NCBI GenBank assembly: GCA_949935685.1
Contig: CATLGN010000022.1
Coordinates: 1 to 12,872 of the forward strand
Direction of reading: 5' to 3'
DNA: 12,872 nt
DNA from: an uncultured Lachnospiraceae bacterium
GTDB taxonomy: Bacteria > Bacillota > Clostridia > Lachnospirales > Lachnospiraceae
Part shown: in pieces, positions 1,612-6,795 of the stretch
How the letters are laid out: every line of letters begins with the position of its first letter
How positions within the stretch are numbered: the first letter of the stretch is position 1
Position numbers and translations under genes: made by a program
Notes under the pieces: model-generated
Databases searched by the model: none
Told to the model about the DNA's origin: nothing
The model's input: only the letters and a program-made list of their open reading frames with translations

Positions 1612-1878
1612 TTATTTTCTGAGGCCGAGCCTTTCGATCAGAGCACGGTATCTCATAATATCTTTCTTCTTTAAATAAGCAAGCAGGCCACGCCGCTGAC
1701 CAACCATCATCAAAAGTCCTCTTCTGGAATGATGATCTTTGTCATTTGCCTTCAAATGCTCTGTCAATTCCTCAATCCGTGCTGTCAGTACGGCAATCTG
1801 CACTTCCGGCGAACCGGTATCGCCTTCGCTCCTTGCATACTCTTTGATAATCGCTGTTTTCTTTTCCTTAGAAATCAC
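1612..1878 (-). CDS. rpsO: 30S ribosomal protein S15
   Basis: S15 is a primary binding protein of the central domain of 16S rRNA and forms part of the subunit bridge to 23S rRNA. The 88-residue product has the usual length and the family motifs [14 protein letters not shown] near residues 18-31 and DHHSRRGLL near 48-56. The start is GTG at 1878 (V-ISKEKK, read as M), chosen because a perfect AGGAGG (1888-1893) lies 9 nt upstream and because the protein then has the family N-terminus. The open frame continues upstream to 2073, but that extension has no S15 similarity and runs through the promoter. rpsO has its own promoter and terminator here, away from its usual partner ribF. Confidence 0.97.
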
Positions 1879-1922
1879 TTCTGTCTTCCTCCTGTTTTCA
1901 TACGCCTGCTGCCAAGAATGGG

Positions 1923-1967: not shown

Positions 1968-1996
1968 AGTTTATCACAATATTTTTTTTGTGTAAA
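1968..1996 (-). promoter_or_regulatory. Predicted sigma-A promoter of rpsO
   Basis: On the minus strand TTTACA (1991-1996) is followed by a 17-nt A/T-rich spacer and TAAACT (1968-1973). The -35 matches consensus at 5 of 6 positions and the -10 at 4 of 6. It begins about 20 bp from the edge of the first palindromic repeat element, so rpsO transcription starts right beside that element. Confidence 0.6.
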
Positions 1997-2016: not shown

Positions 2017-2267
2017 GTAATGTTTTCGGGAATCCGGGCATGTGTCTCGTTTGCCGTGCCGGACTACGGGCATAAGCGGTTCTAAGCGGTTTGTCTGTCA
2101 GTTATGACAATCGTGCAACCGGCCTCTATGCGCCATCCGGGCGCAGGTCGGCCTTTTCCGTGCATCCTTGCACGGAAATTGCAGGGAACCGACAAACCGC
2201 CAAGAACCGCTAACGCTCTCCGTAGGCACGGCAAACGAGACACATGCCCGGATTCCCGAAGCGTTAC
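2017..2267 (-). repeat. Structured palindromic element, copy 1 (conserved core reads on minus)
   Basis: Arms 2025-2060 and 2225-2260 are perfectly complementary over 36 bp. With one bulge and two T-G pairs they extend to 2017 and 2267. Inside them are stems 2065-2069/2220-2224, 2075-2083/2203-2211 (AGCGGTTCT/AGAACCGCT) and 2086-2095/2191-2200. A closing helix (2114-2118/2179-2183, TGCAA/TTGCA) then encloses two hairpins: a 10-bp stem with a 4-nt loop (2155-2164/2169-2178) and a GGCC-flanked stem TGCGCC/GGCGCA (2129-2134/2140-2145). A small hairpin sits at 2096-2109. The unit 2056-2229 is homologous to copy 2; the outer arms are not. I see no coding potential and no terminal sequence of a known insertion sequence. 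Confidence 0.88.
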
Positions 2268-2335
2268 GGTATGAAAATTTTTTATCGAAAGCATATAGCG
2301 GGACAGAATATGGCAAAGTCCGCAATACGGACATA

Positions 2336-2566
2336 TTCCGACGGGGACGGATACGCGCGGCTTTGTGCCTTCGGAGGGTATTAGCGGTTCTTACAGATGC
2401 GTCGCAGCCTGCAATTCCCGGACAGGGATGTCCGGGAAAGGCCGACCTGCGCCCGGATGGCGCATAAAGGCCGGTTGCACGCCCGTCGGTATCTGTTGCC
2501 GCAGCCGTTAGAACCGCTTATGCCCGCAGTCTGGCGCAAAGCCGCGCGTATCCGTCCTCGCCGGAA
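2336..2566 (+). repeat. Structured palindromic element, copy 2 (conserved core reads on plus)
   Basis: Arms 2336-2369 and 2533-2566 pair over 34 positions with one mismatch and two G-T pairs. Inside are AGCGGTTCT/AGAACCGCT (2383-2391/2510-2518), a weaker ACAGAT/ATCTGT helix (2393-2398/2491-2496), the closing TGCAA/TTGCA (2410-2414/2475-2479), a 10-bp hairpin with GGGA loop (2415-2424/2429-2438) and TGCGCC/GGCGCA (2448-2453/2459-2464) between GGCC boxes. The 45-nt core 2437-2481 differs from copy 1 (2112-2156, reverse complement) at one position. The homologous unit 2365-2537 is 173 nt, against 174 nt in copy 1. The outer stem has wholly different sequence yet still pairs, so base pairing appears to be the conserved feature. 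The element ends 57 nt after the stop codon of the NlpC/P60 gene. Confidence 0.88.
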
Positions 2567-2623: not shown

Positions 2624-3775
2624 CTATGGCAATACCCGCTTCACAGCCGCCGGCGTACGATAAGTCGCATTGGAAATGCGGATTCCGGTCTTGGGGCTGC
2701 TGGCATGCACCACCTGTCCGTCTCCGATATACAGCGCCACATGGTTGATCGTGCCGCCTTTGGCATAAAAGATCAGATCGCCCGGTTTCGCATCCGCCAG
2801 AGAAATCTTCGTTCCCACGCCTACCTGCTGTCTGGACGATCTGGGCAGCGATACGCCGAAGTGCTTGAACACACTCTGCACGAATCCGGAGCAGTCCGCT
2901 CCCTTTGTCAGACTTGTGCCGCCCCAGACATAGGGATTGCCCACAAACTGTTTCGCATACTGGCACAGATCAATCCGTGTATTGGAAATTCCGTTTCCAT
3001 ATAACAGCTCTTTCATCGTGACGGCTGTTTCCAGTTCTTCTTCCACAACACAGTAATCGGTGGACACATAAGCTTCCTCGTCGTCCAGCATAATCTTAGC
3101 CCATCCGTCGCTCTGCTGTTCCACAACTTCCAGCCGTTCATCCTGCGCCACAAGCGTGATAACCGGGCAGTCGGTGTTTGGCTGTTCCCGCACCTTGAGC
3201 GTCTGGGTATTGACTTTTGCCACGACATAGACGACTTCCTGCGCCTTTTTCCGGGCTTCCTCACCGGTCAGCAGGTAGTCCGTATGTACATACCCTTCCA
3301 CCTTGCCCGATTTCACATGCGCCCAGTCTCCTTCCACCGAAAGGATCTCACAGGCGGCGTTCTTCGTCATTTTTCCGACCAGCTCCCCGTCTTCCCCGGC
3401 CTTATCCCGCACATTCAAATGATTATCAACCTGCGCCATTCCCAGATTGGTATATCCCCACAGATTGTCCACACTGTTTGCTTCCTTCTGTGCCTCCGCG
3501 GTCTCCAGAATTTCCGCATCCACCGCCTCATCGATAATCTCCTGCGCCTCCTGTAACGCTTCTTCCGCTTCTTTTCTTCTCTCCTCCACGGCCGCTACCG
3601 CCTTTTCCGCCTTCCCGGGATCGATCGGGCCATAGTCCGCCTCTGCCGCAATGCGGTCAAAACCAGCCGTGGCTTTTATAATATCGCTGGTGGATGCCGC
3701 TGTTATCTTTATATTGGATACCGACAAAATCGCTGCTGTAAGCAGCACCACTCTTCCTGTCGTCTTTTTTTCCAT
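2624..3775 (-). CDS. Secreted SH3b-SH3b-NlpC/P60 peptidoglycan hydrolase
   Basis: This is a predicted cell-wall endopeptidase acting outside the membrane on peptide stems of peptidoglycan. The 383-residue protein has a signal peptide (residues 1 to about 27, KK then a hydrophobic stretch, cleavage near TAA-S). A Glu/Ala-rich, probably coiled-coil segment follows (about 52-98). Two bacterial SH3 domains come next (about 107-168, LNVRDKAGEDGELVG; and 182-243, LKVREQPNTDCPVI), which usually bind the wall. The NlpC/P60 domain covers about 265-383, with nucleophile C295 in ADCSGF, H345 in NHVALY and H357 as the likely third catalytic residue. All catalytic residues are present. GGAG lies 5 nt upstream of the ATG. 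The exact bond cleaved is not readable; gamma-D-Glu-diamino acid cleavage is the family norm. Confidence 0.93.
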   Translation of the reverse strand: MEKKTTGRVVLLTAAILSVSNIKITAASTSDIIKATAGFDRIAAEADYGPIDPGKAEKAVAAVEERRKEAEEALQEAQEIIDEAVDAEILETAEAQKEANSVDNLWGYTNLGMAQVDNHLNVRDKAGEDGELVGKMTKNAACEILSVEGDWAHVKSGKVEGYVHTDYLLTGEEARKKAQEVVYVVAKVNTQTLKVREQPNTDCPVITLVAQDERLEVVEQQSDGWAKIMLDDEEAYVSTDYCVVEEELETAVTMKELLYGNGISNTRIDLCQYAKQFVGNPYVWGGTSLTKGADCSGFVQSVFKHFGVSLPRSSRQQVGVGTKISLADAKPGDLIFYAKGGTINHVALYIGDGQVVHASSPKTGIRISNATYRTPAAVKRVLP

Positions 3776-4198: not shown

Positions 4199-4774
4199 TC
4201 ACAATTCCCCGCTTCGTTCCAGAAATGCCCACTGAACGCCGTATCGGTCAATAAAATGAAAAAAACGCTTCCCGCTGATTCTGTCCGCAACTTCCTGTTT
4301 CCGGTCAAAATTCCCTTCCGTCTTCCAGTCAAAGCAGATCAGATCGGCCGGGCGCGTCGTATCGATCCGGCTGACCTTATACTCTTTCGCCGGGTCGGCC
4401 ATCATAATATCCGGCTGCTGCCGGATATACGCAAAAGCCTCCTCAATATTTTCCACTTCCAGCGCCGCGTATCGAATGCCGCTCATATCGTTGGGTTTAA
4501 AAAATACCGGGGTTTTTCTCCCTTCCGGATCATGAAAACGCATCAGCACAATTATCAGCGGCGTCCCCGGTAAATCCATCACGCCCACGGAAGCCTCGCT
4601 CTCGTCCGCCTGCTCTGCAAATCCCATCCCTCTGAAAAATCCTCTGTTTCTCCAATGGGACAGATGTTCCCTCGGTACGGCTCCCAGTATCCGTTCATAA
4701 TATGCAAATGCTTCGCTCACATCCTCCACCGGAATACAGATATGCGAAAAACCGGTAAACGACGCTTTTCTCAT
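4199..4774 (-). CDS. VOC-fold (glyoxalase/bleomycin-resistance-like) protein
   Basis: The product has 191 residues from the ATG at 4774. The N-terminal module starts FTGFSHICIPVEDVSEAFAY (6-25), typical of the first strand and helix of the vicinal oxygen chelate fold, with H11 a candidate metal ligand. The second module starts IRYAALEVENIEEAFAYI (100-117) and ends FIDRYGVQWAFLER (174-187), with E187 a candidate ligand. VOC proteins include glyoxalases, dioxygenases and antibiotic-binding proteins; the substrate cannot be read here. The start at 4774 gives a 4-nt ATGA overlap with the kinase stop and places GGAG 5 nt upstream, so translation is probably coupled. The ATG at 4789 is a less likely alternative. 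The operon context hints at a stress or detoxification function under the two-component system, which is inference. Confidence 0.85.
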   Translation of the reverse strand: MRKASFTGFSHICIPVEDVSEAFAYYERILGAVPREHLSHWRNRGFFRGMGFAEQADESEASVGVMDLPGTPLIIVLMRFHDPEGRKTPVFFKPNDMSGIRYAALEVENIEEAFAYIRQQPDIMMADPAKEYKVSRIDTTRPADLICFDWKTEGNFDRKQEVADRISGKRFFHFIDRYGVQWAFLERSGEL

Positions 4775-6081
4775 ATCAACTCCGCCCATGCTTCACCCCC
4801 CCCCCTTGCCATCACATCCAATATAAAAAATCCGCCCTGTGTGAAGCAGACCATCTCGCCGCCAAGCCGCTGCGTCGCATCCGCGATCGTCCGCATGCCA
4901 AAACCATGTTCCGGCCCGGTCTTGTCCGTATCGGGCATCATCCCCTTCTCGACACACAGACTCTCCCGGCAGCGGTTTTTCATACGGATAATCAACCAGT
5001 CTCCGCGCGAACGCATCTGTATCTGCGCCTCCGCCGGAAGCTGCGCTTCTTTCTGGCGGCAGGAAGCGTCATAGGCGTTCTCCAGCCCGTTCGAAAGAAT
5101 CTGGCACAACTCCATATAAGGAAGCCTTTCTTCGTTGATCTGAATATCCAGATGAAACGGAATATTCTGTTCCCCGAATTTCATCACATAATGACTGAAT
5201 ACCGAATTCAGATAAGGATTGCCACAGTAAATCTGACGGGTTTTATCCTGGCCGGAGATCAACTTTTGCAGATAATTCTGCGCCTCCTCCGTCTTCTCCG
5301 CAAACAACAGCCCCGAAAGCGTCACGATATGCGCCCGCATATCATGCTGCAGCCTGCGGATAAACTGCTGATTTTCAATCTGTGCTTCCAACTGCTGCTG
5401 ACGTTCCACAAGCAGCCGGTCCTCCTGCTTTTTCCGGTACAGCAAAAGCTGCCGGTACAGAGCGGAAAAGATCGTGGCATATGTCATCGGCATCAAAATC
5501 AGCACAAGCAGATAGGCGCCCATGTCGTGCGGACGGCTCGTGATAATCGAAGGGAAGTTGGACATTGCAATCAGCAGCGCATAATAGAGCGCGGCCATGG
5601 CTGCAAAAATATTCCATCCTTTCTCCACCGAGTCCTGCAGTTCGATATACGGATTGCGTATTCTCCGGTAAGCATACCATTCAACAAGCGGGAACAATAT
5701 CAGCCTGCCAATAAACATCAGAATACACCGGCCGCCGCCTGCGTAATAGTCCAACAGGTTGGTGACAATGATAATCCAGTAGGCCACCGTATCCGCCACA
5801 CAAAACGTAAATAAAAACCGCCCTTTGCGGTCTTTGGACATCAGATAATAAAACACCAAGCTGGGAATCGTGCAGGTCAGATAAAACAGCTTTCCCATCC
5901 GTTCCGCACCCAACAGGTACAGCCCCGCAACATTCGCCAACCCGACCGGCGTCATGCAGAGAACGGTCAGCAAGATTGTTGTTTTCCGGGAAAAACGGGA
6001 ACGATACAGAAGCATAAAAAGAATCAGAATATGAAAAAGGCACCAGAGTATGGAAACTTCCCGCAAAAATGCTGTCTGCAT
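4771..6081 (-). CDS. AgrC-like (HPK10) membrane sensor histidine kinase
   Basis: This is the sensor of a two-component system, with 436 residues. The N-terminal half has six or seven hydrophobic segments (about 10-27, 34-58, 64-81, 88-112, 118-137, 158-175, 188-212). A charged coiled linker follows (213-240), then the phosphoacceptor motif RRLQHDMRAH with H246, and a GHKL ATPase domain with N-box SNGLENAYDA (330-339) and G-box HGFGMRT (392-398). The HDxxxH motif and short ATPase domain are typical of AgrC-type quorum-sensing kinases. The ATG overlaps the regulator stop by one base (TGATG). The coding sequence ends with a run of ten G (4796-4805) giving ARGGGE. No AgrB or AgrD gene is in the window, so the signal is unknown. 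Confidence 0.93.
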   Translation of the reverse strand: MQTAFLREVSILWCLFHILILFMLLYRSRFSRKTTILLTVLCMTPVGLANVAGLYLLGAERMGKLFYLTCTIPSLVFYYLMSKDRKGRFLFTFCVADTVAYWIIIVTNLLDYYAGGGRCILMFIGRLILFPLVEWYAYRRIRNPYIELQDSVEKGWNIFAAMAALYYALLIAMSNFPSIITSRPHDMGAYLLVLILMPMTYATIFSALYRQLLLYRKKQEDRLLVERQQQLEAQIENQQFIRRLQHDMRAHIVTLSGLLFAEKTEEAQNYLQKLISGQDKTRQIYCGNPYLNSVFSHYVMKFGEQNIPFHLDIQINEERLPYMELCQILSNGLENAYDASCRQKEAQLPAEAQIQMRSRGDWLIIRMKNRCRESLCVEKGMMPDTDKTGPEHGFGMRTIADATQRLGGEMVCFTQGGFFILDVMARGGGEAWAELI

Positions 6082-6779
6082 CAGTCCATCTCCTCAAACA
6101 AGATCTCCCGGTACCGCTTTTTGACTTCTGCGGCATACCTTCTGGATATGGGAATATGATACCCGGCAAGCGTCATGTCGTTCCCGTCCAGATTGTCAAC
6201 ATAATACATATTAACCAGATAACTCTGGTGACACCGGCAGAAAGTATCGCCCGCGACCCGCTCGGCAATCTCGTCCAGTCTGCCCGTACAGGACTGAATA
6301 TAACCGTCCCGGCAATAAATGGACAGCGTATGCGCCCTGCTGCTCACAAACAGAATCCTGTTATAGGGAATGGCCCCCAACTGCCCCCGCCAGCGAAAAT
6401 GCAGAGAAAGCTCTTTATTTTTTGCAACATGACGGGCCACCCGTTCCAGAAGCTGACGAAGGGTTTCCGGTTCCACCGGCTTCAACAGATACTGAACGGC
6501 ATACAGGTCATACGCCTCCCGGTAAAATGCATCGCTGGAAGATACAAAGCAAACTGCTCCGTACTCATCCACCAGCCGGATCTGTTTTGCCAGCCGGATA
6601 CCGTCCATAGAATCCAGATATATATCCAACAGATACAGATCATATGATATTCTTGCATCCCTTACATCCGCCAGAAGTTCCCGGGCGCTTCCATATAAAA
6701 CGGTCATATGCATTCCGCCAAGCAGAGATTGCAGATATAAAGCGTCTTCACGGCAATCGTCACATATGGCAATCCTCAT
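6081..6779 (-). CDS. LytTR-family response regulator
   Basis: This is the DNA-binding partner of the adjacent kinase, with 232 residues. The receiver domain (1 to about 118) has acidic residues D7-D8, phosphoacceptor D52 in LLDIYLDSMDG and the conserved K100 in YLLKPVE. The LytTR domain (about 128-230) shows FRWRGQLGAIPYNRILFVSS, FCRCHQSYLVN (180-190) and IPISRRY (209-215), all standard for the family. The ATG at 6779 is chosen because AGGTGG (6785-6790) lies 5 nt upstream and MRIAICDD is the family N-terminus. A GTG at 6788 overlaps that site and is unlikely. The gene is first in an operon with the kinase, VOC and small-protein genes. LytTR regulators usually bind paired direct repeats and often control their own operon. 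Confidence 0.95.
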   Translation of the reverse strand: MRIAICDDCREDALYLQSLLGGMHMTVLYGSARELLADVRDARISYDLYLLDIYLDSMDGIRLAKQIRLVDEYGAVCFVSSSDAFYREAYDLYAVQYLLKPVEPETLRQLLERVARHVAKNKELSLHFRWRGQLGAIPYNRILFVSSRAHTLSIYCRDGYIQSCTGRLDEIAERVAGDTFCRCHQSYLVNMYYVDNLDGNDMTLAGYHIPISRRYAAEVKKRYREILFEEMD

Positions 6780-6795
6780 AACAGCCACCTTTCAT

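Follow-up and report, generated by a model that had tools for sequence, protein, structure and literature searches.

Within the window, i.e. the whole stretch of 12,872 nucleotides that was analysed, rpsO and its upstream neighbour, a gene for an NlpC/P60 and SH3 domain protein, are separated by about 740 bp. This gap contains two homologous hairpin units arranged head-to-head. Both are recognised by cmscan as TwoAYGGAY (RF01731), with 96.9 bits for the minus unit and 89.2 bits for the plus unit against a gathering score of 43. The covariance-model match spans the full 168 positions, with two GGA hairpins on a junction and a long closing stem. The features of the locus are as follows.

1612..1881, minus strand: rpsO (ribosomal protein S15), the downstream gene (PF00312, E 2.2e-39)
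1968..1996, minus strand: rpsO promoter TTTACA-17-TAAACT, immediately beyond the minus unit (promoter scan)
2025..2060, no strand: outer arm of the minus unit, 3' arm, partner 2225-2260 (inverted repeat I2, 36 nt, 100%; subfamily B arm common to other copies)
2061..2225, minus strand: TwoAYGGAY (RF01731) core, subfamily B unit (cmscan, 96.9 bits)
2129..2145, minus strand: hairpin 2 of the minus unit, loop CCGGAU (sequence and Rfam alignment)
2154..2178, minus strand: hairpin 1 of the minus unit, loop region GCAAGGAUGC (sequence and Rfam alignment)
2225..2260, no strand: outer arm of the minus unit, 5' arm (inverted repeat I2)
2300..2324, plus strand: remnant of an A-type sub-terminal arm, GGGACAGAATATGGCAAAGTCCG, where other A copies read GGACAGAAACGGAAAAGTCTG (by eye against the flanks of other copies)
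2336..2369, no strand: outer arm of the plus unit, 5' arm, partner 2533-2566 (inverted repeat I4, 34 nt, 91%)
2369..2532, plus strand: TwoAYGGAY (RF01731) core, A-like unit (cmscan, 89.2 bits)
2415..2438, plus strand: hairpin 1 of the plus unit, loop region ACAGGGAUGU, GGA at 2426-2428 (sequence)
2448..2464, plus strand: hairpin 2 of the plus unit, loop CCGGAU, GGA at 2455-2457, lacking the A of ANGGA (sequence)
2533..2566, no strand: outer arm of the plus unit, 3' arm (inverted repeat I4)
2624..3775, minus strand: NlpC/P60 and SH3 domain protein, the upstream gene (PF00877, PF08239; synteny with rpsO in relatives)

The hairpin pair upstream of rpsO

A previous sequence-only reading of this stretch had proposed two homologous units with a near-identical core, and the RF01731 matches at 2061-2225 and 2369-2532 bear this out. 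The inverted pair 2112-2185 / 2408-2481, made of segments of both cores, shows 89% identity over 74 nt, and around hairpin 2 the cores differ, by eye, at a single position over about 44 nt. The same reading had offered a new structured RNA as a candidate. The novelty has to be abandoned, as both units match an Rfam family, an outcome that the reading itself had named as speaking against its proposal. In the alignment, the hairpin 2 loop of the plus unit is one base shorter than in the Rfam model. Single-strand folding of the two units gave z-values of -16.85 and -11.41, and in each case 0 of 200 shuffles were as good. The outer arms do pair as had been described, with 36 of 36 positions complementary in the minus unit (2025-2060 / 2225-2260) and 91% over 34 nt in the plus unit (2336-2369 / 2533-2566). 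On one point the description needs amending: the arm sequences are not specific to each copy, since both kinds of arm recur in other copies of the genome. Comparison with the flanks of these copies assigns subfamily B arms to the minus unit and an A-like arm to the plus unit, and it is this membership in two subfamilies that makes the arms of the two window copies differ.

No promoter-like site other than that of rpsO was found at 1900-2700, and thus none for the window cores. The promoter scan, which found one site versus 0.8 expected in shuffles, is no proof on its own; by eye, a similar promoter precedes rpsO in the relatives L052, L054 and L055. In these three relatives, the gap between the NlpC and rpsO genes is 141–162 bp versus about 740 bp here (one locus compared), and no hairpin units were seen in it by eye. 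The search for empty orthologous sites was therefore successful as regards the short gaps, while exact insertion ends are not definable there. In L053 (9155-10047) a different insert, of roughly 700–750 bp, is located in the same gap. Neither intact terminal ends nor a detectable target duplication was found for the window pair, which is therefore a decayed, head-to-head two-core form located upstream of the rpsO promoter. Elsewhere in the window (4771-6788), a GHKL histidine kinase and LytTR response regulator pair lies beside a Na/Pi cotransporter-PhoU gene.

Copies in the genome, their ends and their targets

Further copies, whose existence had been a point to check, are numerous: RF01731 has 55 matches in the same genome, 54 of them over the cut-off (2.0 Mb, genome about 69% complete). 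In the better-preserved copies the Rfam core is the middle of an inverted-repeat element of about 400 bp (396–403 bp for full copies), with sharp and conserved ends, CACGACAAACG...CGTTTGTCGTG. Among 52 copies, such ends were recognised on at least one side in 37 and on both sides in 21 (right end 28, left end 30). Directly outside the ends lies a 10-bp direct duplication: over 29 end pairs, one of which (C110:3824) is probably spurious, identity was 0.60 for own pairs versus 0.25 for mismatched ones, and it reached at least 0.8 in 12 of the 29. In this genome TwoAYGGAY thus forms a family of many copies, the better-preserved of which are non-autonomous elements of the MITE type, and it is very nearly certain that they are mobile. 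It had been argued that a MITE would keep identical terminal repeats. This objection fails because the window copies are of different subfamilies and have lost their outermost ends; elsewhere in the genome, conserved terminal inverted repeats and target duplications are present.

Deleted derivatives of about 150–320 bp were also found, in which the ends are kept and the core is wholly or partly gone (L135:2213-2361, L136:686-832, L137:2236-2472, L139:2478-2681 and L138:3531-3805). As core-lacking copies keep the ends and some of them the duplication, perfect over 10 bp for the short copy in L135, it seems to be the ends, and not the core, that define the mobile unit. The same ends (G000-type) occur on a viral contig (L252:13536-13708), flanked by the repeat AAAGTATGT, and no core hairpin was found in this element. 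The viral contigs contained no exact core pattern and no G176-type end, the plasmid collection gave no match for the window pair, and the phage collection gave none for one full-length copy. No autonomous partner with the same ends was noticed among 45 matches (40 of 94 candidate stretches scored, in a genome about 69% complete), nor in the stretches that hold the core-lacking short copies.

The insertion sites show a strong preference. With approximate sigma-A promoter weights, the first 100 nt outside 57 sufficiently flanked element ends were scored, and 30 ends have an outward promoter of at least 10 bits; its -35 box begins 17–20 nt from the end in 27 cases, mostly at 18–19 nt. Control stretches 100–200 nt away contained 2 strong promoters, with 0 at 17–20 nt, and those 180–280 nt away contained 0; in the inward direction there were 10, one of them at 17–20 nt. 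With a laxer rule (score of at least 8, 17–21 nt), 19 of the 20 elements with both ends tested have a promoter on at least one side, and 3 have one on both sides. Insertion aimed at promoters is thus highly probable. Gene neighbours, called with a simple codon model, showed no copy between convergent genes (0 of 39 with both neighbours called) and no clear strand preference (16 opposite/opposite versus 11 same/same). Recombination directed by the hairpins, another suggestion made from the sequence, finds no support here, the target duplications and conserved ends looking instead like DDE-type insertion aimed at promoters. Transcription of the core is not obvious, since many copies are located upstream of promoters directed away from them.

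The head-to-head arrangement is not peculiar to the window, since all five pairs less than 700 bp apart in this genome (full list) are divergent; in other genomes, 12 further divergent pairs, 2 tandem and 0 convergent ones were found among the matches listed. Arms are present in 46 of 52 copies at a score of at least 17.5. The control for this pairing (mean 11.3, maximum 63.5) is weak, as arms of the same subfamily also pair across copies. The other six copies are C76, C230, C48 and C137, located at contig ends, C68:4617, which lacks the right arm, and C113, which has a short one.

Conservation of the core here and in other genomes

For 49 cores an alignment was made, C76, C230, C68:4617, C134, C128 and C12 being left out as partial or at contig ends. 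The GGA is invariant in both loops, 96.7% of the cells pair, and 26 of 47 pairs are changed on both sides; shuffles gave 12.2 on average, and slid structures no more than 7. This covariation, together with folding beyond that of shuffles, upholds the earlier claim of selection on structure. In the 21 full-length copies, conservation per 20 columns is 0.92–0.96 for the two hairpins, 0.81–0.94 for the rest of the core, 0.68–0.84 for the arms and 0.88–0.90 for the outermost ends. In the core stems, G.U exceeds A.C in 38 of the 49 copies, with the reverse in 4 and a tie in 7. In total there are 100 G.U to 28 A.C cells; counted by column the ratio is 16 to 11 (p 0.44), which weakens this bias as proof of an RNA. 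The long arms were rejected as RNA evidence because G.U and A.C number 183 and 213 there (67 to 42 in the inner 36 nt, 116 to 171 in the outer part). A GGA-loop hairpin was found on the sense strand in 144 of 148 copies tested (14 genomes, part of the known copies) and on the other strand in 16; as applied to this genome, the test also counts GGAs located at a stem edge.

The core is probably selected as RNA. If it acted as DNA instead, as a cruciform or hairpin that aids transposition or as a protein site, its resemblance to CsrA sites would be coincidental. Such a role is compatible with the long, near-perfect arms, which form DNA palindromes, with a G.U bias that is not significant by column, and with the frequent position of copies upstream of promoters pointing away, but it explains neither why the GGA-loop hairpins are confined so largely to one strand nor why G.U prevails copy by copy. 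Furthermore, the core-less copies with shared ends and some duplications indicate that the core is dispensable for insertion, unless it was lost afterwards. We consider the DNA role unlikely.

TwoAYGGAY cores are present in 35 of 200 genomes of a family sample (at most 13 matches scored per genome) and in 36 of 391 genomes of a class sample (27 over the cut-off). A later search gave 50 copies in G143, 47 in G042, 32 in G122, 31 in G086, 23 in G176, 12 in G066, 7 in G008 and 3 in G131, and 0 in G080 (same genus). The ends vary between genomes. In G176 they read GATTCGGGTGTCAAAAGG on an element of about 310 bp, with a 7-bp duplication (0.80 versus 0.52 for mismatched pairs, 19 of 20 copies read), although part of this signal is target preference, since the target itself is conserved. 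G122 has variants of the GATTCGGGTGTCAAAAGG ends, both being found in 9 of 24 copies. The ends in G236 are CTGTAATTCGTAATAT, with an 8-bp duplication (0.61 versus 0.36, 7 copies) and an outward promoter at 16–18 nt on one side in 6 of the 7. In G066, the arms of the four copies read are different again, and each pairs over about 140 nt, as far as the scan reached. Since the core is combined with different ends in other genera, the two are separate modules.

Some additional features were noted in these genomes. The G066 copies (L149, L158, L166 and L173) have the core at the apex of a palindrome with arms of at least about 140 nt, and by eye of more than 200 nt in L166; outer arm segments differ between copies and are complementary within each copy. 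The G176 elements (L196-L211), inspected by eye, often follow a T-run and have a common target like CTTATAG, and a second small repeat, CTTTCACGCTTTAGCGTGACAAGGTCTTTCCTAT and variants, adjoins some of them. Starts and ends of G143 contigs (e.g. L179, L184, L189, L190, L191 and L193) fall inside or near a core copy, which is what recent and almost identical copies would produce.

CsrA, the proposed function and known systems

The SELEX consensus for E. coli CsrA is RUACARGGAUGU, CsrA SELEX hairpins have mostly at most 4 contiguous pairs, and CsrA dimers bridge sites 10–63 nt apart, according to the retrieved part of PMC7652899. By eye, loop 1 fits this E. coli consensus at 11 of 12 positions in the plus unit and at 10 of 12 in the minus unit. 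The two GGAs are 29 nt apart here and 22–52 nt apart in other copies tested. Loop 2 in this genome reads CNGGA and thus lacks the expected A of ANGGA; at least one ANGGA loop per copy was found in 112 of 148 copies tested (14 genomes), including 45 of 49 here and 0 of 20 in G176. The 9-pair stem of hairpin 1 may not be favourable to CsrA binding, judging from the mostly short stems among the SELEX hairpins as described there.

CsrA is encoded in the same genome. It is found over the cut-off in 34 of 35 TwoAYGGAY genomes versus 74 of 165 others in the family sample (Fisher 9e-10), and in 31 of 36 versus 94 of 355 in the class sample (2e-12). FlhA is present in 35 of 35 and 35 of 36 TwoAYGGAY genomes of these samples, respectively, and this near-complete confounding with flagella weakens the co-occurrence as proof of a link with CsrA. 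Among flagellated genomes of the class sample, TwoAYGGAY occurs in 30 of 123 with CsrA versus 5 of 24 without it, 3 of these 5 being less than 90% complete, and the presence of CsrA thus has no effect on the rate in this group. CsrA is the likeliest ligand of the core, a putative one at a little under even odds.

TwoAYGGAY was listed by Weinberg et al. in 2010 as a probable RNA that is not cis-regulatory, with hosts that include Clostridiales and human gut (PMC2864571, retrieved in part), and its Rfam type is Cis-reg. From motif matches, Gardner and co-workers proposed that it is a CsrA-titrating sRNA (PMC4333381, retrieved in part). This proposal could mean that the motif is a stand-alone regulatory RNA copied for dosage and not the passenger of a transposon, which would agree with the two GGA hairpins, the CsrA-like loop, the strong covariation and the low number of copies in some genomes (only 1–4 with strict filters, among the matches listed). 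However, conserved ends, 10-bp target duplications and a fixed promoter distance are hallmarks of transposition, the ends differ between genera, and no promoter of its own was found in the window pair, all of which make a stand-alone RNA rather improbable. Least probable is a recently spread MITE with a functionless core, conserved through recent spread and arm-to-arm conversion: the copies of one genome are indeed alike (mean column identity 85%) and many G143 contigs stop at a copy, as would be expected of recent repeats, but within the same copies conservation is clearly higher in the core hairpins than in the arms, compensatory changes occur within one genome, and the same core is found with different ends in other genera and families.

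The best explanation overall, with a probability of about 55%, is that these are promoter-aimed mobile elements whose core is kept as an RNA with CsrA-type sites. A DDE transposase acting in trans would mobilise the elements, and it would recognise promoters or promoter-bound RNA polymerase, as in the TnGBS/ISLre2 group. The core may be retained, although we are less sure of this, because its RNA is useful. Upon read-through transcription, the GGA-loop strand would form a long hairpin, at the apex of which one or two sites of the CsrA type would be displayed, about 29 nt apart. Each copy could then be a dispersed CsrA-binding element, which titrates CsrA or tags mRNAs, and RNase III could release the apex. 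It is conceivable, although doubtful at present, that TwoAYGGAY is a CsrA-binding module that travels: several unrelated miniature transposons of flagellated Clostridia, aimed at promoters or selective for other sites, would have acquired it. If true, the spread of the elements would seed a genome with dozens of CsrA sites, and mobile elements would set or rewire the CsrA network.

The RNA is known and its genomic setting is new. The structured RNA and the mobile element, put forward earlier as alternative candidates, are both right together, except for the novelty of the RNA; the mobile nature is well supported, and a role as RNA is likely. A curated but unexplained RNA family would thereby be identified in the genome as the conserved core of miniature transposons aimed at promoters, which would account for its patchy and high copy number. 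A TwoAYGGAY match should not automatically be taken as a cis-regulator of the adjoining gene. The family also allows a direct test of whether binding sites for a global RNA-binding regulator can be spread by mobile elements. The retrieved parts of the literature on TwoAYGGAY contain nothing on mobility, those on CsrA and miniature inverted repeats name the two, but apart, and those on MITE and Lachnospiraceae, CsrA with transposable element or decoy, and MITE and Rfam hold nothing relevant.

Several known systems can be compared with these elements. Like TwoAYGGAY in RF01731, they show the full-model match, with two GGA hairpins on a junction and a long closing stem; unlike it, the better-preserved units are about 400 bp long with terminal repeats, and loop 2 is one base short. 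REP/REPIN sequences with RAYT are palindromic and intergenic, dispersed in many copies and often paired head-to-head. The present copies are similar in these respects, but they have target duplications and much longer units. RAYT-type transposition was rejected, as no Y1 (HUH) transposase (PF01797) was matched in this genome, about 69% complete. UPF0236 (PF06782), which we take to be the transposase family of TnGBS/ISLre2, had no match in 7 of 8 genomes searched, including this one, and is present in G122. An ISLre2 transposase was thus also rejected as the mover here, with the same completeness of about 69%. The resemblance to CsrA-titrating sRNAs of the CsrB and RsmY type consists of GGA in hairpin loops, a loop 1 that fits RUACARGGAUGU and a GGA spacing of 29 nt, within the 10–63 nt bridging range (PMC7652899, in the part retrieved). 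In contrast with these sRNAs, there are 1–2 sites per copy instead of many and about fifty dispersed copies, and no own promoter or terminator was seen in the window pair; the hairpin stem is also longer than in most of the SELEX ligands described.

A further comparable system is TnGBS/ISLre2 (p-MULT 3), whose members are described as inserting 15–17 nt upstream of the -35 box of sigma-A promoters with 8–9 bp duplications (PMC3942029, retrieved in part). The elements share with them a fixed distance upstream of a sigma-A -35 box and a terminal C, and, as in some members, near-perfect repeats with promoters on either side (PMC3942029). The G236 elements, with an 8-bp duplication and promoters at 16–18 nt in 6 of 7, fit p-MULT 3 as described there. 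In the genome studied here, the distance is mostly 18–19 nt and the duplication 10 bp, versus 15–17 nt and 8–9 bp. As both are slightly longer and the transposase family was not found here, the element is similar to TnGBS/ISLre2 in its target and is not a member. As a MITE that has a 10-bp duplication and a promoter target at a fixed distance, it is close to, and distinct from, the described Mutator-type elements.
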